From contig QHUY01000014.1 of NCBI GenBank assembly GCA_003223415.1, positions 1 through 52,344 on the forward strand: a stretch of 52,344 nucleotides of DNA. Direction: 5' to 3'. This document shows, piece after piece, positions 9,778 to 44,656 of this stretch. The notes below the pieces were generated by a model. That model did no database searches, was not told the origin of the DNA, and was given only the letters and a program-made list of their open reading frames with translations. Source of the DNA: Gemmatimonadota bacterium. Lineage in GTDB: Bacteria > Gemmatimonadota > Gemmatimonadetes > Gemmatimonadales > GWC2-71-9. A program made the translations under genes and the position numbers. Position 1 is the first letter of the stretch, and every line of letters begins with the position of its first letter.

Positions 9778-10849
9778 CGTCGTCTTGGGCATCGAGACGT
9801 CATGCGACGAGACGTCGGCCGCCGTGCTCGTCGGCGGCGGGGCCTCCTCCGCTCCCCCCCCTCCGCCGGAGCTTGCCAGCCTGATCATCCTCTCGCAGGA
9901 CATCCACAAGGTTTTTGGCGGCGTCGTGCCCGAGCTCGCGAGCCGGGCGCACCTCGCCGCGCTGCCGGCCGTCGTGGACCGCGCCCTCGCGGAGGCGGGG
10001 ATCGCCTGGAGCGCCGTGGACGCCGTGGCCGTCACCCAGGGCCCCGGGCTCGTCGGCGCGCTGCTCGTCGGGGTTGTGTACGCCAAGGCGCTGGCGTACG
10101 CGGGGGACCGGCGGCTGATCGGGGTGCACCACCTCGAGGGGCACCTCTTCGCGCCGGCGGTGGAGGATCCCCACCTCGCCCCGCCGTTCGTGGCGCTGCT
10201 GGTCTCGGGCGGTCACACGCTGCTGCTCGACGTCCCCGCCTGGGGCCGCTATCGGCTGCTCGGCGCCACGCGCGACGACGCGGCCGGCGAGGCGTTCGAT
10301 AAGATCGCCACGCTGCTCGGCCTCGGGTATCCCGGCGGCCCCGCGATCGAGCGCTTGGCCCGGGAAGGGGAGCCGGCGCGTTTCACCTTCCCTCGCCCGA
10401 TGCGCGACGAGGGCTTCGAGTTCTCGTTCTCAGGGCTGAAGACGGCCGTGCTGCATGCCGTGCGCGCGAGCGACGACCTGGACCGCGACCGCCCGCACAT
10501 CGCCCGGGCCTTCCAGGACGCCGTTCTCGACGTCCTCGTGACCAAGCTCGAGCGGGCGGTCCGCGTCACGGGGCACCGTATCGCCGTGCTGGGCGGCGGG
10601 GTGGCCTGTAGCAGGGCCCTGGCCGAGCTGGCGGCGCAGCGGCTCGCCGGCACGGCCCGCGTGGCCGTCGCGAGCCCGCGCCTCAACGCCGACAACGCCG
10701 CGATGATCGCCCGCGCCGGCTGGTGGCGGCTCGCGCAGGGCGAGGAGAGCGACTGGACGCTCGATGCCCGTGCCGACCTGCCGCTGCCTGGGCTCGACGT
10801 CGGCGCGCCCTTTCCCCATTCCACATTCCGCACTCCGCATTCCCCATGA
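9770..10849 (+). CDS. tsaD: tRNA N6-threonylcarbamoyladenosine synthase subunit TsaD
   Basis: TsaD transfers threonylcarbamoyl to A37 of ANN-decoding tRNAs. ASKHA-fold motifs visible: LGIETSCDETSAAV (N-terminal phosphate motif), GGVVPELASRAH, the metal-binding VHHLEGHLFAP, LLVSGGHTLL, GEAFDKIA..LGYPGGPAIE, FSFSGLKTAVL and the C-terminal NADNAAMIA. 359 residues from a GTG at 9770 that overlaps the YbbR gene. After the first motif there is a Pro-rich extra loop (GGGASSAPPPPP) encoded by a run of eight C. The last residues (FPHSTFRTPHSP) are encoded by a 7-base word array that also contains the lgt start. Confidence 0.95.
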   Translation: MADVVLGIETSCDETSAAVLVGGGASSAPPPPPELASLIILSQDIHKVFGGVVPELASRAHLAALPAVVDRALAEAGIAWSAVDAVAVTQGPGLVGALLVGVVYAKALAYAGDRRLIGVHHLEGHLFAPAVEDPHLAPPFVALLVSGGHTLLLDVPAWGRYRLLGATRDDAAGEAFDKIATLLGLGYPGGPAIERLAREGEPARFTFPRPMRDEGFEFSFSGLKTAVLHAVRASDDLDRDRPHIARAFQDAVLDVLVTKLERAVRVTGHRIAVLGGGVACSRALAELAAQRLAGTARVAVASPRLNADNAAMIARAGWWRLAQGEESDWTLDARADLPLPGLDVGAPFPHSTFRTPHSP

Positions 10850-10851: not shown

Positions 10852-11688
10852 GTCTATCCACTCGTCTTCCACCTCGGGCCGCTCACTGTCACCGGCTACG
10901 GCCTCATGATGATGGTCGCCTTCTTGATGGCCGGTTGGGCCATCCAGCTCGACCTACGCGGCCGGGGCTGGCGCGAGGAATACGCCGCTGACATCGTGAT
11001 GGCGGCGGTGATCGGCGGGTTGGTGGGCGCCAAGTTGTGGTACGTGCTGCTCACCGGCGAATGGGACGCGTTGCTGCGGCGCGGCGGGTTCGTCTGGTAC
11101 GGCGGCTTCCTCGGCGGCGCCGCCGGCGTGCTGCTGGCCGGGTGGCTGAAGCGGGTGCCTCCCCGCTTGACCTGCGAGCTTTGCGCCGCTCCGCTCGCGC
11201 TCGGGTACGCGCTGGGACGAGTCGGCTGCTTCCTCGTGAACGACGACTACGGCATCCCGAGCTCGCTGCCCTGGGCGATGAAGTTCCCCCAGGGGCTCCC
11301 GCCGACCACGGTGGCCGACCTGACGAGTCTGCATGTGAAGTTTCCGCCCGGGACCGACCCGCTCCAGGTCGTGGCGGTGCACCCCACCCAGCTCTACGAG
11401 ACCGCCCTCATGTTCCTGGCGTTCGCGTGGCTGTGGCGGCTGCGAGGCCACGCTCACGGCACCGGCTGGCGGTTCGGGCTCTACCTGATGCTGGCGGGGG
11501 CGGAGCGCTTCCTCATCGAGATCGTTCGCGCCAAGGACGACCGGCTGCTCGGCCCATTCACGCTGGCCCAGCTGACGAGCGTGCTGCTGGTGCTGGTCGG
11601 AGCCTTCCTCACGCAACGCTGGCGGCACAAGGAAGCGTCAGCCTTCAGCCTTTCAGCCATCAGCCATCAGGCAAGCGCCTCAACCTGA
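10846..11688 (+). CDS. lgt: Prolipoprotein diacylglyceryl transferase
   Basis: Lgt attaches diacylglycerol from phosphatidylglycerol to the lipobox Cys of exported prolipoproteins, the first step of lipoprotein maturation. The 280-residue product is a multipass membrane protein with TGYGLMMMVAF at the first helix, VWYGGFLGG in the region of the essential His, GRVGCFLVNDDYG (variant of the usual GRxGNFxNGE signature) and HPTQLYE. The variant signature is also known in alternative Lgt subfamilies. The ATG overlaps the tsaD stop (ATGA). The C-terminus (ASAFSLSAISHQAS) is encoded by a word array and overlaps the end of the convergent FTR1 gene. Several lipobox proteins in this window are potential substrates. 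Confidence 0.92.
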   Translation: MTVYPLVFHLGPLTVTGYGLMMMVAFLMAGWAIQLDLRGRGWREEYAADIVMAAVIGGLVGAKLWYVLLTGEWDALLRRGGFVWYGGFLGGAAGVLLAGWLKRVPPRLTCELCAAPLALGYALGRVGCFLVNDDYGIPSSLPWAMKFPQGLPPTTVADLTSLHVKFPPGTDPLQVVAVHPTQLYETALMFLAFAWLWRLRGHAHGTGWRFGLYLMLAGAERFLIEIVRAKDDRLLGPFTLAQLTSVLLVLVGAFLTQRWRHKEASAFSLSAISHQASAST

Positions 11689-11713
11689 GGGCTGACGGCT
11701 GATGGCTGACGGC
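11637..11713. repeat. 7-base word array forming a hairpin at the convergent ends of lgt and the FTR1 gene
   Basis: The left arm 11637-11672 reads GTCAGCC, TTCAGCC, TTTCAGCC, ATCAGCC, ATCAGGC. The right arm 11684-11713 reads as its inverse (TGAGGGC, TGACGGC, TGATGGC, TGACGGC), with a loop of about 12 bases. Both genes end inside it, so it is translated on both strands and could act as a bidirectional terminator, though no long T run follows. Confidence 0.75.
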
Positions 11714-37996: not shown

Positions 37997-38950
37997 ATGG
38001 CGGCCGCTACTCTGCCGTCTTCACACCACGTCCGCGCCCTCGTGGGAGTCCCGCGCATGGCCCGATCGACGACAGGCAAGGCGAAAGCGTTTTTTCGCGC
38101 CAACCCGTCGGGTGCATTCGACCAATACCTCCAAGACATCCAGAAGCTGCCGTTGATCAAGGACCCCGCCGAGGAGCGCCGGCTGGCGCGGCGGGTGCAG
38201 CGCGGGGACGAGAAGGCCGCCGAGCGGCTCGTCACCGCCAACCTCCGATTCGTCATCTCTTACGTCAAGAAGTACCAGGGACACGGCCTCGATCTCTCCG
38301 AGCTGGTGGCCATCGGCAACGAGGGGCTGCTGAAAGCCGTGAAGAAGTTCGATCCCGATCAGGGCGTGAAGTTCATCTCGTACGCGGTGTGGTGGGTGCG
38401 CCAGGCGGTGCTGAAGGCGCTCGCCGAGCAGACCCGCAGCGTACGCATCCCGCTGAACCAGAACTCCCAGCTCATCCGGATGAGCCGGACCGAGACGTAC
38501 CTCTCGCACGAGCTGGGCCGCGAGCCGACCGACGACGAGATCGCGCAAGCCCTCGAAGACACTGTCGAGAACGTCCGCACCGCCCGCCGCATGACGGCCG
38601 CCGAGCTGTCGCTCGACGCGCCGGTGGACCGCACTGACAAAGACGCGGCCACGCTTGGCGAGCGGTTCGCCGGCCAGGAGGGCGGCGAGATCGAGGACCG
38701 GACCGACGGTAAGCTGATGCGCGAGTTCATCGACCGCATCTTCCAGAAGTACCTCACCCCGCGCGAGCGCAAGATCCTCTACCTCTACTACGGCCTCGAG
38801 GAAGGCAGCGAGGCGATGACGCTGGAGAAGATCGGGGCGTTGATGGGCGTGACGCGGGAGCGAATCAGGCAGATCAGGGAGCGGGCGTTCGAGAAGCTCC
38901 GCGAGTCGCCTGATGGGAAGGCGCTGAAGGGATTCTGGAGAGCAGCGTAA
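37997..38950 (+). CDS. rpoD: RNA polymerase primary-type sigma factor (RpoD/SigA family)
   Basis: 317 residues; region 1.1 is absent. Region 1.2/2: FDQYLQDIQKLPLI, LVTANLRFVISYVKKYQG, DLSELVAIGNEGLLKAVKKFD and FISYAVWWVRQAVLKALAEQ (core binding and -10 recognition). Region 3: SQLIRMSRTETYLSHELG. Region 4: YYGLEEGSEAMTLEKIGALMGVTRERIRQIRERA (-35 recognition helix-turn-helix). An internal ATG at 38057 (MARSTTGKAK) with GGGAG upstream is an alternative start that would remove 20 residues. A long imperfect hairpin follows. Its short form resembles sigma factors of Gemmatimonadota and Bacteroidota; whether it is the housekeeping factor or a stress-type paralogue cannot be decided here. Confidence 0.9.
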   Translation: MAAATLPSSHHVRALVGVPRMARSTTGKAKAFFRANPSGAFDQYLQDIQKLPLIKDPAEERRLARRVQRGDEKAAERLVTANLRFVISYVKKYQGHGLDLSELVAIGNEGLLKAVKKFDPDQGVKFISYAVWWVRQAVLKALAEQTRSVRIPLNQNSQLIRMSRTETYLSHELGREPTDDEIAQALEDTVENVRTARRMTAAELSLDAPVDRTDKDAATLGERFAGQEGGEIEDRTDGKLMREFIDRIFQKYLTPRERKILYLYYGLEEGSEAMTLEKIGALMGVTRERIRQIRERAFEKLRESPDGKALKGFWRAA

Positions 38951-39079
38951 CAGGACGGGCGAAGACTAGGCGTACAGACGCACAGCGGTGAACAGAGAGC
39001 GGAGCCAGGAAGACCTTGTCCTGACTCCGCTTCGCTGTTGTCCGCTGTGCGTCTGGGCGTCTAGCCTATGCCCGTCCTG
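38951..39079 (+). terminator. Long imperfect hairpin downstream of rpoD
   Basis: Starting right after the rpoD stop, about 62 bases (CAGGACGGGC...) pair with the inverse (...GCCCGTCCTG, ending 39079) through segments such as AGACGCACAGCGG and GCGGAG, with a short loop near 39015. No T run follows. It directly abuts the TATACT box of the next gene. It may be a terminator, a processing site or a mobile miniature element. Confidence 0.6.
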
Positions 39080-39085
39080 TATACT
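39080..39085 (+). promoter_or_regulatory. -10-like TATACT box eight bases before a start codon
   Basis: TATACT lies eight bases before the ATG of the Lon-domain gene and immediately after the hairpin. There is no Shine-Dalgarno motif. A good -35 box is not visible, as the expected position falls inside the hairpin arm. Confidence 0.45.
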
Positions 39086-39093
39086 ATTACGTC

Positions 39094-39813
39094 ATGTCCC
39101 GGGAGCTGCCCATTTTCCCCCTGCCTCTGGTCCTCTTCCCCGGGACCACCCAACCTCTGCACGTCTTCGAGCCCCGCTACCGCCGCCTGCTCGCCGACTG
39201 CCTGGCCGGCGACAAGCGCTTCGGCATCGCCTATCACCGCGCGGCCGCGGGAGAGGGAGGGGAGGGGGAGGGGGGAGCGGGGGGGGGGGCGACGGAGGCG
39301 GCCCCGGTGCCCGGCGTCATCGGCTGCGTCGCGGTGATCCGGTCCACGACGGCACTGCCCGACGGCCGCGCGAACATCCTGACCGCAGGGGAACGACGTT
39401 TCACCCTGGTCGAATGGGTGCCGAGCCCCCTGCCCTACCGCGTCGCCCACGTCGAGGAGTTCGACGACGAGCCGGTGGACGAGACCGAGGCCGCCGCGTT
39501 GGCGGCCGAGGTGCGACAGGATTTCGGACGGCTCACGAGGGCCCTTGCCGTCCTGACCGACCGCGACGACCAGGAGACCGAGTTGTCGACCGAGCCGCTG
39601 CTGCTTTCCTTCCAGGTGGCCGCGGCACTGGAGCTGGAGCCCGACGCCAAGCAGGCGCTGCTCACGCTTCGGAACACCGCTGACCGGCTGCGGCGCCTGG
39701 CCGCCCTGCTGGTCCCCCTCTCCGCCGACGCCGAGCGGCGCGCCGTCGTCCGGCAGCGCGCCCGGGGCAACGGCAGGGGCGGAGCGCACCCCCAGATCGA
39801 GCCGGCCGCATGA
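39094..39813 (+). CDS. Stand-alone Lon N-terminal (LON substrate-binding) domain protein
   Basis: 239 residues matching only the N-terminal domain of Lon protease: ELPIFPLPLVLFPGTTQPLHVFEPRYRRLLADCL, FGIAYHR, GCVAVIRS and GRANILTAGERRFTLVEW. It has neither the ATPase nor the protease domain. In other bacteria such proteins are of unknown function. A G-rich insertion (39247-39292, with 11 G at 39279-39289) encodes EGGEGEGGAGGGA in the middle of the domain. Its stop overlaps glcD (ATGA). Confidence 0.85.
   Translation: MSRELPIFPLPLVLFPGTTQPLHVFEPRYRRLLADCLAGDKRFGIAYHRAAAGEGGEGEGGAGGGATEAAPVPGVIGCVAVIRSTTALPDGRANILTAGERRFTLVEWVPSPLPYRVAHVEEFDDEPVDETEAAALAAEVRQDFGRLTRALAVLTDRDDQETELSTEPLLLSFQVAAALELEPDAKQALLTLRNTADRLRRLAALLVPLSADAERRAVVRQRARGNGRGGAHPQIEPAA
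39247..39292 (+). repeat. G-tract insertion in the Lon-domain gene
   Basis: Repeated GGGAGG-type words end in a run of 11 G (39279-39289), separating parts of a conserved fold by a Gly/Glu-rich loop. It is a strong G-quadruplex and slippage candidate. Confidence 0.7.
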
Positions 39814-41333
39814 GCGCGCCGAACGGGAACGGCGGATCGTTGGCGAGGGCGCTGGCCGCCATCGTGGGGTCGGGGCACGTCCGGACCGCCCCTGCCGAGC
39901 GGGCCGCGTATGCGATGGACGGCTTACCGACGCACCGCCGTGTTCCGGGGGTCGTCGTGCTGCCGGGGACGCGGGAAGAGGTGATCGCGGTCGTGCAGCT
40001 GCTCGCCGCGCAGGGGGTGGCGTTCGTACCGCGCGGCGCGGGCACGGGGCTCTCGGGGGGCGCGCTCGCCGAGCCGGAAGCGGCGCTCCTCGTGCTGACG
40101 CGGTTGAACCGGATCCTCACGATCGATCCGGCCAACCGCAGCGCGGTGGTGGAGCCCGGCGTCGTGAACGTGAAGCTCTCGGCCGCGGCCGCCCCCCACG
40201 GCCTCCTCTACGCCCCCGACCCGTCCAGCCAGACCGCCTGCACCATCGGCGGCAACGTGGCCGAGAACTCCGGCGGCCCCCACTGTCTCAAGTACGGGGC
40301 GACCAGCAACCACATCCTCGCCCTCGAGGTGGTGCTCGCCGACGGCCGCGTCGTCACGCTCGGCAGCCCCGGCGGGGAGCCGTGGGGGCCGGACCTCGTC
40401 GGCGTGTTCGTCGGCTCGGAAGGCAACTTCGGGGTCGCCACGCGCATCACAGTCCGGCTCATCCCCGTGCCGCAGGCCGTGCGCACGCTGCTCGCGGACT
40501 TTCCATCCCTGCGAAGCGCGGGCGAGGCCGTCTCGGCGATCATCGCGAGCGGCGTAGTCCCGGCCGCGCTGGAGATGATGGACCAGTCCTGCATTCGGGC
40601 GGTCGAGGACTCGGTGTACGCGGCGGGGTACCCTCGGGATGCCGCGGCGGTGCTCCTGGTGGAGCTCGACGGCCGCAGCGACCAGGCCGTCGACGAGGAA
40701 GCCGCAGGCGTCGCGGAGTTGCTCGCGACGCACGGGGCCCGCACCGTGCGGCGCGCGGCGGACGCGCGCGAGCGGGAGCGGCTGTGGCAGGGGCGCAAGA
40801 AGGCGTTCGGCGCCATGGGTCGCCTGTCGCGGGACCTGGTGGTGCAGGACGCCGTGGTGCCGCGCTCGGCGCTGCCCGACGTCCTGGAGACCATCAGCCG
40901 CATCGCCGCCCGCCACCACATCGTGGTGAGCAATGTGTTCCACGCGGGCGACGGCAACCTGCATCCGAACATCTCGTTCGACGGCCGTGACACCGCGCAG
41001 CGCGTCCGTGTCGAGCAGGCAAGCGCCGAGATCATGGAAGCGTGCATCGCCGCCGGCGGCACGATCACGGGCGAGCACGGCGTGGGCCTGGACAAGCTCC
41101 GGTACATGCCGCTCATCTTCGATGGCGACTCGCTCGCCGCGATGCACGCCGTCCGGCGGGTATTCGACCCCGACGAGCGGGTGAACCCGGGCAAGGTGGT
41201 CCCGGTGCACGCGTGCCGGGAGTGGACGCGCGCGGGAACGCGGAACGAGGAACGCGGAACTCGGAACGATGCATCGTTTAGTTCCGCGTTCCGCCTTCCG
41301 CGTTCCGCGTTAGACCTGGAGGGCCCCCGGTGA
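39810..41333 (+). CDS. glcD: Glycolate oxidase FAD-binding subunit GlcD
   Basis: 507 residues, PCMH-type FAD oxidase. FAD-binding segment: VVVLPGTREEVIAVV, FVPRGAGTGLSGGAL, TIGGNVAENSGGPHCLKYG and SEGNFGVATRITVRL. Catalytic/C-terminal domain: SNVFHAGDGNLHPNI and GGTITGEHGVGLDK, ending VFDPDERVNPGKV. GlcD with GlcE and GlcF oxidises glycolate (or D-lactate) to the 2-oxo acid and feeds electrons to the membrane. The ATG overlaps the Lon-domain gene. The last 40 residues, encoded from 41235 to 41311, are a Arg/Asn/Thr/Ser-rich tail from a heptamer hairpin and are not part of the family fold. Confidence 0.93.
   Translation: MSAPNGNGGSLARALAAIVGSGHVRTAPAERAAYAMDGLPTHRRVPGVVVLPGTREEVIAVVQLLAAQGVAFVPRGAGTGLSGGALAEPEAALLVLTRLNRILTIDPANRSAVVEPGVVNVKLSAAAAPHGLLYAPDPSSQTACTIGGNVAENSGGPHCLKYGATSNHILALEVVLADGRVVTLGSPGGEPWGPDLVGVFVGSEGNFGVATRITVRLIPVPQAVRTLLADFPSLRSAGEAVSAIIASGVVPAALEMMDQSCIRAVEDSVYAAGYPRDAAAVLLVELDGRSDQAVDEEAAGVAELLATHGARTVRRAADARERERLWQGRKKAFGAMGRLSRDLVVQDAVVPRSALPDVLETISRIAARHHIVVSNVFHAGDGNLHPNISFDGRDTAQRVRVEQASAEIMEACIAAGGTITGEHGVGLDKLRYMPLIFDGDSLAAMHAVRRVFDPDERVNPGKVVPVHACREWTRAGTRNEERGTRNDASFSSAFRLPRSALDLEGPR
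41235..41311 (+). repeat. 7-base word array forming a hairpin in the 3' end of glcD
   Basis: Left words GGAACGC, GGAACGA, GGAACGC, GGAACTC, GGAACGA (41235-41269); right words GTTCCGC, GTTCCGC, CTTCCGC, GTTCCGC (from 41281). Between them is the palindrome AACGATGCATCGTT. The whole array is read in frame as the GlcD tail, 20 bases before the glcE start. Confidence 0.8.
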
Positions 41334-42541
41334 CCATCCTCGACAAAGTCCGCGCCCTATTGGGCGAGGGAGCACTGCTCGAAGCGGCCCGCGCCGGCGA
41401 GGTGCCCCGGGTCGCGCCGGGCTCGCCCGACGCGGTGTCACTGCTGCTGCGCACGGCCCACGAAGAGGGCTGGCGCGTGCGCGTCGAGGGCGCGGGAACC
41501 TGGTTGCCGCCCGACGCGCCCGCCGACCTGGCGCTCACCACGCGCCGGCTCGACCGCATCCTCGCGATCCAGCCGCAGGACCTCATTGCCACGGCCGAAG
41601 CCGGCATCGGCTGGGACCAGCTGCGCCAGCAGCTGGCGGACCGCGGCGCGTGGCTGGCGATCGACCCACCCGGGCTGGCCGGACGCACGCTGGGCTCCGT
41701 CGTGGCCACCGCCACGGCGGGACCGCTGCGCAGCGGGTTTGGCGCCGTGCGGGACCACCTGCTGGGCGTCACGTTCGTGACCGGCGACGGCCGCATGATC
41801 CAGAGCGGCGGCCGGGTGATGAAGAACGTGGCCGGCTACGACCTGACCCGGCTCCAGGCCGGGGCGTTCGGAGCGTTCGGGGTCATCGTGCTGGTGCACC
41901 TCCGGCTGCGGGCCCTGCCCCGCGCCGACGCCACGCTGCTGCTCGAGGGTGCGCGCGAGGACTTGGCGCGCGTGGCGGACGACATCCGCGCGGCCGGGCT
42001 CGCCCCGGCGGCGCTCGAGCTCGTTTCCCCCGCGCTCGCCCGCCGGGACCGGTGGGTGCTGGCGGCGCGGGTCGCGGGCTCCGCCGCGCTCGTCGCGTCG
42101 GAAGAAGCCGAGCTGCGCGCGGCCGCCAGCGGACGGCTCGCGGCCCTGCGCGCCGAGGAAGCGCACGCGTTCTGGATGCGGGCGGCCGAAAGCCTAGCGA
42201 CGCGGCCCGTGACGCTCCGCATCGGCGGGCTTCCCGACGGCACGGACGAGCTGCTCGACCTGCTGCAGCACCAAGTCGGTGACGAGTGGGTCTCGGCGGC
42301 CCCGGGGACCGGCTCCATCCGGTGGGCCGGCGAGGCCAGCGCCGACCGGCTCCGTCGCCTGCGGCGCGCGCTAGCGGCGCTCGAGGTCCCCCTGACCCTC
42401 GAGCGCGCACCCTGGGAACTGCGCAGCGCCGTGGGGCACTTCGGCGCCTACCGCGAAGGCGTGGGGCCGCTCGTCGCCGGGCTGCGCAAGACGTTCGATC
42501 CGCGGGGCGTCCTGGTCTCGGCGGTCGCAGGCGATGAGTGA
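41330..42541 (+). CDS. glcE: Glycolate oxidase subunit GlcE (FAD-binding)
   Basis: 403 residues, second FAD-binding PCMH-type subunit. Motifs: EGWRVRVEGAGTWL (PP-loop region), LDRILAIQPQDLIATAEAGIGWDQL, GRTLGSVVATATAGPLRSGFGAVRDHLLG and MKNVAGYDLTRLQAGAFGAFG, the typical GlcE stretch. The C-terminal region ends FDPRGVLVSAV. The GTG at 41330 overlaps the glcD stop (GTGA) and the stop lies inside glcF, so all three subunits are translationally coupled. Confidence 0.9.
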   Translation: MTILDKVRALLGEGALLEAARAGEVPRVAPGSPDAVSLLLRTAHEEGWRVRVEGAGTWLPPDAPADLALTTRRLDRILAIQPQDLIATAEAGIGWDQLRQQLADRGAWLAIDPPGLAGRTLGSVVATATAGPLRSGFGAVRDHLLGVTFVTGDGRMIQSGGRVMKNVAGYDLTRLQAGAFGAFGVIVLVHLRLRALPRADATLLLEGAREDLARVADDIRAAGLAPAALELVSPALARRDRWVLAARVAGSAALVASEEAELRAAASGRLAALRAEEAHAFWMRAAESLATRPVTLRIGGLPDGTDELLDLLQHQVGDEWVSAAPGTGSIRWAGEASADRLRRLRRALAALEVPLTLERAPWELRSAVGHFGAYREGVGPLVAGLRKTFDPRGVLVSAVAGDE

Positions 42542-43817
42542 ACGCGGCGGCTTCGCCGCGCTCGACGCCTGCGTCCACTGCGGCTTCTGCCTGCAGGCGT
42601 GCCCCACCTTCCTCGCCACTGGGGACGAAGCCGACAGCCCGCGCGGCCGCATCGAGCTGATGCGCGCACTCGAGCGCGGCGAGCTCTCCCCCGACGATAC
42701 GGCCCTCACGACGCACCTCGACCGCTGCCTCGGCTGTCGCGGGTGCGAGCCGGTCTGCCCCTCCGGCGTCGGCTACGGACACGGCCTCGAGGCGGCGCGG
42801 GCCGTGATCGCCCGGCAGCGCGGCGCGCCGGCGCTGGCGCGCCTCGCGCTACGGGCCCTGACCGGCCCGGACGTGTCGCGACTGCTCTACGGCCTGGCGC
42901 GGCTGCTGCGGGCGACGGGTGTGCCCGGCAGGCTCGCCGGCTGGGGCAGGCTCCGGTTCGCCATGGGAATGTTGGCGGCGACAAGACCGACGCGGAACGC
43001 GGAAGTTGGAACGCGGAACCGCGCAACCCCTTCGAGCCCCGCGTTCCCCGTTCCGAGTTCCGCGTTGCTCTTCAGGGGCTGCATCATGGACGGCCTCTTC
43101 TCCCATGTCCACGACGCCACCATCCGGACGCTCGCCGTGAACGGCATCGCCGTGGAGGAGGTGCGCGGGCAGGTGTGCTGCGGCGCGCTGCACGCGCACG
43201 CCGGGCTGCGCGACGAAGCGCGCCGGCTCGCGCGCGTGAACGTCGCGGCGTTCGGCGACGGGGACGAGCCGATCGTCGTCAATAGCGCGGGATGCGGGGC
43301 GATGCTGAGAGAGTACGGCCACCTGCTGGACGAGGACCTCACCCTCCCCCCGCCCTCCCGCCCCCCCTCGGGTCGCGGGGCGAGGTTCGCCGCGCGGGTG
43401 CGCGACGTCACCGAGGTGCTGGCCGCGCGCGGGCCCGTGCCGGGCGCGCCGCTCGACCGCCGCGTGGCGTACGACCCGCCGTGCCACCTCCTCCACGCCC
43501 AGCGCGTCGCCGATGCGCCGCTCGCCGTGCTGCACGCGATCCCCGTCCTCCAGCTCGTCGCGACTCCCGATGCGGCTCAGTGCTGCGGCAGCGCGGGGCT
43601 CTTCACGCTAGTCCAGCCGGAAATGTCCCGCGCGGTGCTCGCTCCCAAACTCGACCAGTTACGCGAGGCCGCGCCGCAGGCGGTCGCAACGGGCAACCCC
43701 GGCTGCATCATGCAGCTCGGCGCCGGACTCCGGGCGGCCGGCGGGCCGGCGACCCCGGTCGTTCACCCCGTGGAACTGCTCGACGCCTCCTACGCGGCCG
43801 CCGGTCTGTACGAGTGA
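42534..43817 (+). CDS. glcF: Glycolate oxidase iron-sulfur subunit GlcF
   Basis: 427 residues. Two N-terminal 4Fe-4S ferredoxin motifs: CVHCGFCLQACP and CLGCRGCEPVCP. Two CCG-type domains (heterodisulfide-reductase-like): VCCGALHAHAG, SAGCGAML, YDPPCHLLHAQ, QCCGSAGLF and GNPGCIMQ. It passes electrons from GlcD to the quinone pool. An extra segment encoded at 42994-43066 (TRNAEVGTRNRATPSSPA...) lies between the first and second halves and comes from a heptamer hairpin like that of glcD. A C-rich tract at 43343-43370 encodes PPPSRPPSG. Confidence 0.92.
   Translation: MSERGGFAALDACVHCGFCLQACPTFLATGDEADSPRGRIELMRALERGELSPDDTALTTHLDRCLGCRGCEPVCPSGVGYGHGLEAARAVIARQRGAPALARLALRALTGPDVSRLLYGLARLLRATGVPGRLAGWGRLRFAMGMLAATRPTRNAEVGTRNRATPSSPAFPVPSSALLFRGCIMDGLFSHVHDATIRTLAVNGIAVEEVRGQVCCGALHAHAGLRDEARRLARVNVAAFGDGDEPIVVNSAGCGAMLREYGHLLDEDLTLPPPSRPPSGRGARFAARVRDVTEVLAARGPVPGAPLDRRVAYDPPCHLLHAQRVADAPLAVLHAIPVLQLVATPDAAQCCGSAGLFTLVQPEMSRAVLAPKLDQLREAAPQAVATGNPGCIMQLGAGLRAAGGPATPVVHPVELLDASYAAAGLYE
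42994..43066 (+). repeat. 7-base word array forming a hairpin inside glcF
   Basis: Left words GGAACGC, GGAAGTT, GGAACGC, GGAACCG (42994-43021) and right words GCGTTCC, CCGTTCC, GAGTTCC, GCGTT (43041-43066), with a loop of about 19 bases. The word is the same as in the glcD array about 1.7 kb upstream. The frame is kept across the inserted segment. Confidence 0.8.
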
Positions 43818-44656
43818 ATACCCGCCGCCTCCGCACCGCCGATGGGGTGGAGCTCGCGCTGCACCGCCTCCGCGCCCACCGCGACGGCCGCGCGGCGGCG
43901 CTGCTCGTGCACGGCGCCTTCTCGAGTCACACCGTCTGGCTGCAGGCCGGCGGTGGCCTCGCGCACTACCTCGGCGAGCGCGGCGTCGACGTCTGGCTCG
44001 CCGACCAGCGCCACCACGGCGGCAGCGCGCGGGAACCTCGCCCCTTCACTTGGCGGTTTGAAGATTTGATCCTGGACGATGCGCCGGCGTTGGTCGCGCG
44101 CGTGATGGAAGAGACCGACGGCGCACCACTGGTCTGGCTGGGGCACTCGGCAGGCGGGGCGGTCGGCCTCGCGTGGCTCGCGCGGCTGGGTCGCGCGACG
44201 CCGCTCGCGGCCATGGTCACGTTCGGCACGCCGGGGCCGTCACACATGCGCTTGGCCCGCCGCGCGCTGGCGCTGAGCACCATCGGAATCTGCCGCGCGC
44301 TCGGGCGGTTCCCGGCCCGCGCGCTGAGGATGGGTCCCGAGGATGAGACGGCACTGGTGCTGGGCGACTGGATGGGCTGGAATACGCGGGGCCGCTGGGT
44401 AGGCCGGGACGGGTTCGACTACCTTGCGGCCCTGGCGGCGGTGCGGACACCGTATCTTGGCGTCGCCGGAGAGGGCGACCGCCTGTTCGCGCCGGCCGAC
44501 GCCTGCCGGCAGGTGCTGGGCGCCGTGGGCGCGGCTCGCAAGGCCTTCGCAGTGGTGCCGAATCTCGACCACCGCGGCATGCTGATCGACCCGCGCGCCC
44601 GCACCCACTGCTGGCCGCGGGTCACCGACTGGCTGGAGGAGACGCTCCGAACGTGA
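43814..44656 (+). CDS. Alpha/beta hydrolase fold protein
   Basis: 280 residues from GTG at 43814 overlapping the glcF stop (GTGA). Features: LLVHGAFSSHTVW (oxyanion loop HG), WLADQRHHGGSAR, VWLGHSAGGAVGLAWL (nucleophile elbow GHSAGG with Ser at about residue 113), AGEGDRLF (acid) and NLDHRGMLID (His). The substrate is unknown; esterase or lysophospholipase-like activity is a family-level guess. It is coupled to the YgfZ-like gene by GTGA. Confidence 0.87.
   Translation: MNTRRLRTADGVELALHRLRAHRDGRAAALLVHGAFSSHTVWLQAGGGLAHYLGERGVDVWLADQRHHGGSAREPRPFTWRFEDLILDDAPALVARVMEETDGAPLVWLGHSAGGAVGLAWLARLGRATPLAAMVTFGTPGPSHMRLARRALALSTIGICRALGRFPARALRMGPEDETALVLGDWMGWNTRGRWVGRDGFDYLAALAAVRTPYLGVAGEGDRLFAPADACRQVLGAVGAARKAFAVVPNLDHRGMLIDPRARTHCWPRVTDWLEETLRT

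Follow-up and report, generated by a model that had tools for sequence, protein, structure and literature searches.

The window, that is, the whole stretch of 52,344 nucleotides analyzed here, is one contig of a 3.53-Mb draft genome of a Gemmatimonadota bacterium in 280 contigs. It contains three adjoining genes matching the glycolate oxidase subunits D, E, and F, two of which carry, in frame, a hairpin whose arms are arrays of a degenerate heptamer (Table 1).

Table 1. Genes, hairpins, and a single-orientation array of the window
Feature	Position	Strand	Remarks
glcD-like CDS	39810..41333	+	match to NF008408/TIGR00387, under the equivalog cut-off
glcE-like CDS	41330..42541	+	match to glycolate oxidase subunit E
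glcF-like CDS	42534..43817	+	match to glycolate oxidase subunit F
Heptamer-armed hairpin, in frame, 3' end of glcD	41235..41311	+	arms 41235-41269 (left) and 41281-41311 (right)
Heptamer-armed hairpin, in frame, glcF	42983..43072	+	linker between the 4Fe-4S N-domain and the first CCG domain
Single-orientation TTCCGCA-type heptamer array	10812..10846	+	last tsaD codons, ends at the lgt start codon
Octamer-armed hairpin, word GTCGGACG, in frame in tgt	1525..1603	+	tgt, queuine tRNA-ribosyltransferase (PF01702)
Heptamer-armed hairpin, word AGCCATC	11653..11709	.	intergenic space between lgt and a converging FTR1/cytochrome c gene
Long hairpin, 49-nt arms, degenerate 8-nt periodicity, CAGACGCA type	38950..39080	.	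intergenic, between a sigma-70 gene and a LON-domain gene

Hairpins of the glc operon and of the window

The glcD hairpin lies immediately 5' of the 4-nt overlap between the glcD stop and the glcE start. Its left arm consists of the words GGAACGC (41235), GGAACGA (41242), GGAACGC (41249), GGAACTC (41256), and GGAACGA (41263), the palindrome AACGATGCATCGTT lies at 41265-41278, and inverse words begin at 41281, 41288, 41295, and 41302; the resulting 31-nt stem is 90% complementary. In glcF, the left words at 42994, 43001 (GGAAGTT), 43008, and 43015 are followed by a 19-nt loop (43022-43040) and by inverse words at 43041, 43048, 43055, and, in a degenerate form, 43062; the stem comprises 34 nt and is 82% complementary. 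The words of both hairpins contain GG only, without a GGG run. Either strand of both hairpins folds much better than shuffled sequence: the RNA folding z-scores are -8.1 and -6.4, and none of 200 shuffles was equally stable. The tsaD/lgt array forms no stem of its own in RNA folding.

These features had been described in an earlier sequence-only reading. The words, the palindrome, and the inverse words of glcD are present as claimed, with the coordinates 41235-41311 checked; the four words, loop, and four inverse words of glcF were confirmed, the last word being degenerate, as was the single orientation of the tsaD/lgt array, located at 10812-10846. The proposal that the common word and architecture of glcD and glcF exceed chance expectation was upheld by the RNA folding shuffles and by the pattern and Markov-2 controls given below. 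The two hairpins are indeed in different frames by their coordinates, but this has little meaning, since a stop-free 7-mer array yields one cyclic heptapeptide whatever the frame; thus, (GGAACGC)n is translated into GTRNAER repeats.

Further downstream, glcF contains a C-rich low-complexity stretch (CTCCCCCCGCCCTCCCGCCCCCCC, 43340-43378) encoding a proline-rich linker. A second, divergent glcF-like gene of the same genome (46% identity; G000:C151:20757-21998, locus L232) has a linker without a hairpin. The slot of the long hairpin at 38950-39080 is occupied by 8-mer-armed hairpins in the genomes G206, G145, and G110. Long hairpins with CTAGACGCACAGACGCGCAGCGGTGAACA-type arms of approximately 8-nt periodicity were seen at this position of the window, at L263:12149-12253, and at L353-L355 (G113), and thus represent two or more genera and more than a single site.

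A genome-wide class of repeat-armed hairpins

The recurrence is not confined to the glc operon: about 100 matches to GGAA/TTCC heptamer arrays are found genome-wide, and the class as a whole uses many words. A pattern search, the method used for all genome-wide counts, gave 101 matches to (TTCCNNN)x4 with at most one mismatch, versus a single match for the reversed-pattern control. Exact matches to the TTCC pattern were found in 38 of 200 sampled genomes of the phylum, most of them in the same family. Most of the named records that share these words are Gemmatimonadota MAGs, and the proteins of the genome of the window have their best matches at those loci (up to 81%), which makes a Gemmatimonadota host very probable. 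In two genomes of this family, G043 and G163, the reversed control (CCTTNNNCCTT...) itself has 36+52 and 2+23 matches, which apparently represent a CCTT-type heptamer word family.

De novo scans covered about 450 kb of the genome of the window and 800 kb of relatives. A scan against shuffled sequence, put forward in the earlier reading as a way to refute it, did not do so: 29 inverted repeats scoring at least 15 were detected in the 450 kb versus none in the Markov-2 controls. The arms are tandem repeats of period 7 or 8 in 22 of these 29 strongest stems, with words including GGAAYGC, GGGAAAC, GGGGACT, AGCCATC, CGTTATC, and GGACGGTC; for some of them (AGCCATC and CGTTATC) the C-rich arm comes first. 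Tandem stems numbered 26 in the 450 kb, 12 in 400 kb of G076, and 7 in 200 kb of G002, versus 0-1 in controls, and none was present in the 200 kb of G013 scanned. The word sets differ by relative, with mostly GGATTGC in G076 and GGGACTC, among others, in G002. The loops differ between copies, and only the arm words are common to them. A chance origin of the class is rejected by the reversed-pattern controls, the Markov-2 simulations, and the shuffled folds.

A member of the class has two oppositely oriented arrays, each with about four units of a word of 7, 8, or (in relatives) 10 nt, which flank a short loop of unique sequence. The contexts of the hairpins are approximate, as genes were called by a home-made codon-usage finder: 24 of 42 pooled tandem hairpins are intergenic, versus 7.6% of bases (p = 1e-16), and 13 lie inside genes. 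Only one of the 24 intergenic hairpins is in a spacer of divergent genes, versus 24% expected (p = 0.011), and the center of intergenic hairpins is about 55 nt past the upstream stop codon.

Convergent heptamer repeats are known for the word GGGAATC in Xanthomonas and GGGGA(C/T)T in Nostoc (Rehm et al. 2015, PMC4692102). The Xanthomonas arrays are degenerate, with a modal number of four units, and form 70-75 close convergent inverted pairs per genome; these are mostly intergenic near the upstream stop, 83% of them occupy the same slots in two species, both species use one word, few copies are in genes, and the word, which has a GGG run, was proposed to form a G-quadruplex (PMC4692102). The hairpins described here resemble this type in (i) degenerate heptamers with about four per array, (ii) convergent inverted pairs with the G-rich arm first, the C-rich words above excepted, and (iii) a mostly intergenic location close behind the upstream gene and rarely between divergent genes, apart from the copies inside genes. 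They differ from it in having many words, in-frame copies in genes, word replacement at common slots, 8-mers, and, in relatives, 10-mers. GGG is absent from the glcD and glcF words, unlike the Xanthomonas word, although the GGGAAAC and GGGGACT classes occur elsewhere in this genome.

Arrays of cyanobacterial STRR heptanucleotide repeats, the TAACTGA repeats of Beggiatoaceae, and those of Bacteroidetes are heptamer direct repeats (PMC4679880). The STRR and TAACTGA arrays are likewise lineage-specific and mainly intergenic, but they are direct repeats, usually not inverted pairs. In hairpins of Microcoleus, Tychonema, and their relatives (L047, L059, L099, and L113), the arms have different heptamers in one phase; in this group (GGGAATT)n stands opposite (TTCTTCC)n, and the arm words need not match.

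Word replacement at fixed slots

Repeat-armed hairpins occupy fixed slots at operon junctions, gene ends, and protein linkers, and these slots are common to relatives. The comparison of sister genomes, another suggestion of the earlier reading, confirmed a real class and detected both gain and loss. A search for GlcF within the family gave 30 loci. The glcF linker contains a repeat-armed hairpin in nearly all of 29 close relatives, with words, assigned by eye on the aligned slots of draft genomes as for all slots below, of period 7 (GGAACGC, GGARTGC, and GGGAGCG), period 8 (GGCGGTTA, GGCGGATA, and GGACGGTC), and period 10 (GGTCGGTGGA, GGGCGGTAAC, GGGCGGCGGA, GGCGCGAAAA, and others). The word does not define these elements: the period varies among 7, 8, and 10, and the word of a slot varies among relatives, whereas the slot itself, its phase and frame, and the architecture are retained. 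Distant relatives have plain glcF linkers, save octamer-armed hairpins in G015, G251, and G243.

The slot at the glcD end holds GGAACGC, GGARTGC, GGATTGC, or a variant peculiar to genus g2; it is empty in G178, G204, and G002, and at the glcD/glcE junction of G208 (L173), G215 (L177), and G207 (L185) a CCCCGGGC-type REP/BIME stands in place of the heptamer hairpin. The tsaD/lgt arrays are of the TTCCGCA, AATCCGC, ACTCCGC, CATCCCG, or ACCACGC type, or missing. The tgt slot carries at least five different 8-mers among its words (GTCGGACG, GGCGGTTA, GGAACGAT, GGAATGAT, GGAATGAC, CACGACGC, and GGCACGTC) and is also found empty, partial, or as one-armed in-frame remnants; in G002, G156, G113, and G216, a loss has left a single arm or a short remnant in frame. 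Comparing some 45 kb of syntenic sequence from seven genomes revealed further common slots with differing words, such as the slot upstream of tgt, which contains GGAATGC in G206, GGAACGC in G145, and GGATTGC in G110. Between the genome of the window (G000) and G076, two pairs of intergenic slots have GGAATGC/GGATTGC and GGGAAAC/GGATTGC, respectively.

The surroundings of the words are kept. Every glcF linker and every tgt insert is a multiple of three, and, with a single exception among the junctions read, the glcD stop ends 4 nt beyond the glcE start whether a hairpin is present or not. Among relatives that are not phylogenetically independent, the left arms at glcD, which comprise four word types, have the same phase in 17 of 19 genomes, the hairpin of the window being one of the two exceptions, and all seven heptamer left arms at glcF, of two word types, agree in phase as well. 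The period is tied to the slot, since tgt hairpins are nearly all octamer-armed, yet heptamers dominate genome-wide. The conservation of phase, frame, and period indicates ancestral slots within which the words were changed. A whole slot word is changed without its flanks and usually without a change of phase.

The word class departs from the GlcF tree, on which 28 labelled rows require 19 changes for the word class versus 8 for the genus; an all-group count including the unlabelled rows is 21 versus a shuffled mean of 23.2, and some clustering remains. Allele transfer via flanking recombination is rejected, as no signal was obtained within +-90 nt at glcF or +-60 nt at glcD, one suggestive pair excepted: for same-word slots of different genera versus other pairs, the near/far ratio of the flanks was 1.04 vs 1.00 at glcF and 1.14 vs 1.15 at glcD. 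The excepted pair is G076 and G216, whose glcD slots are 8% apart, with 14.5% for the flanks and 18% for the gene; judged by these sequence distances, the slot suggests a transfer between genera.

Sister genomes prefer different words. Among the matches listed for GGANNGC, the ratio of GGARTGC to GGAACGC is 33:4 in G206 and 2:20 in its sister G208 (p = 7e-10), the latter counts covering 22 of 33 matches and the p-value being optimistic, as matches at the same site are not independent. A similar replacement is known at a single site: in the P6b stem of the Nostoc tRNA-Leu (UAA) group I intron, made of 7-nt repeats, the NNTGAGT class was replaced repeatedly by TDNGATT off the phylogeny (PMC4476775). 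The likeness lies in a 7-nt-repeat stem at one slot and in a class replacement that does not follow phylogeny. However, P6b is one site in a structured intron with two word classes, whereas here the phenomenon is genome-wide, involves protein-coding slots and many words, and has periods of 7, 8, and 10.

Filled and empty slots side by side and dispersed copies with recurring word orders could point to mobile palindromes of a MITE- or REP-like type, that is, to separate insertions of small elements at hot-spot slots, each of which loses its element and gains another from the family active at the time; the true REP/BIME hairpins in the glcD slot of G208, G215, and G207 are in line with this. We nevertheless hold this explanation to be unlikely, as different words at one slot have the same phase and often the same length, the period is largely bound to the slot, and no common loop or end sequence was seen. 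Empty sites, a MITE feature, occur at glcD and tgt; in a non-systematic look, no target-site duplication was recognized. Genes of RAYT-like Y1_Tnp proteins are present in 59 of 102 genomes of the family, but none was found in the array-rich G156 and G216. At 20 Y1_Tnp loci, the flanks contain other REPs, of the CCCCGGGC and CAGGGACTTCAGTCCC types, or none, rather than repeat-armed hairpins, and a single-orientation heptamer array lies about 1 kb away at two of them. Mobilization by RAYT proteins is rejected, given the weak association by presence and the flanks, which do not fit. The CCCCGGGC-type REPs flank RAYT genes elsewhere in the family, e.g. at L305, L311, and L322, and the RAYT loci of G113 and G206 (L308 and L310) have a second REP type, GCGTCCTTCAGGACGC ... 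CAGGGACTTCAGTCCCT. The hairpins are thus like REP/BIME elements with RAYT in being dispersed and intercistronic, but they are unassociated with the RAYT genes, which carry their own REPs.

Rickettsia palindromic elements are in-frame palindromes in protein-coding genes. The families of these elements have an element-wide sequence in common and are not known to have tandem words in their arms. The hairpins in glcD, glcF, and tgt are similar in being palindromic inserts in frame in unrelated genes, absent from some orthologues, but their loops are unique and only the arm words are common to copies.

Could the stem itself be what is kept? If functional RNA hairpins were selected at operon junctions and domain boundaries, with roles in mRNA processing, differential stability of glcD and glcE, or translational pausing, any stem-forming word would serve. 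The intergenic excess, the deficit between divergent genes, the position behind the stop codon, the very stable RNA folds, the stem in the glcF slot of nearly all close relatives, and the substitution of REP/BIME stems at glcD agree with such selection. As a general explanation it appears improbable to us. Most distant relatives, and several close ones at glcD and tgt, lack the stem in the corresponding slots, no intrinsic terminator (stem with a U tract) occurs anywhere in 38500-44000, and the hairpins have no match in Rfam. Moreover, mismatches on the sense strand are more often A.C than G.T (50 vs 16 at glcF and 19 vs 9 at glcD), the opposite of what selection for a wobble-tolerant RNA stem predicts, a weak argument as the sequences are related.

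Possible evolution of the arrays in concert

Local mutation at each site, with slippage within each arm, template switching between the arms, and no contact between sites, has established components: heptamers are the commonest longer tandem unit in bacteria (PMC4679880, PMC4692102), and correction of arms by template switch is established (PMC8604942). By itself, we regard it as very unlikely, since it leaves unexplained why one word occupies dozens of dispersed sites and another does so in a sister genome, and how words change in phase and without change of length in frame-constrained slots, where a 7-nt slip breaks the frame.

The best explanation, to which we assign roughly even chances, is that the slots are ancestral and that their arrays evolve in concert, mainly through exchange among dispersed arrays, hairpins now and then being gained or lost in frame. 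Arrays of the same period would swap sequence across the genome by ectopic gene conversion or polymerase template switching, acting both between dispersed arrays and between the two arms of a hairpin; homogenization of inverted-repeat arms by template switch is established (PMC8604942, PMC7202029). Slot words would then be overwritten by whichever type is common in that genome at the time, while slippage and in-frame loss of whole hairpins would produce changes of length and scars. In a single step, such exchange would account for whole words that change in phase without their flanks, for the dominance of one word in a genome, and for a period that is bound to the slot. Purifying selection would spare hairpins where a stop-free insert of 25-35 residues or a stem past the stop codon does little harm; thus, the hairpins are probably tolerated rather than needed, with a mild role as intercistronic RNA hairpins possible. 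Against exchange, no event was caught directly, and the suggested transfer between genera in the G076/G216 pair at glcD weighs against it as well. The order of the words frequently differs between the two arms of a hairpin, which rules out rapid correction of one arm by the other. The change of period at glcF (7, 8, and 10) requires more than exchange between like arrays, and the near-universal stem at this slot in the 29 nearest relatives could reflect selection for the hairpin there.

A trans-acting factor or copying system that reads the word might drive the genome-wide in-phase replacement, reading frames included, at dozens of slots through a change of its specificity. We think this quite unlikely; if true, it would mean a concerted switch of the hairpin vocabulary between sister species.

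In a limited search of open papers, we did not find described the combination of in-frame protein slots, many words and periods, and in-place replacement across a bacterial family. The expectation for tandem repeats is independent drift at each site; these hairpins instead retain their site, phase, and reading frame although the entire word is swapped, and a single word spreads through a genome. Proteins such as GlcD, GlcF, and Tgt carry often rewritten inserts of about 25-35 residues. The slots offer a natural system in which to assay the concerted evolution of very short, dispersed bacterial DNA, and the question is general, since exact copies of the architecture, four GGAA words and then four TTCC words within 33 nt, are found in many other phyla, the words being particular to each.
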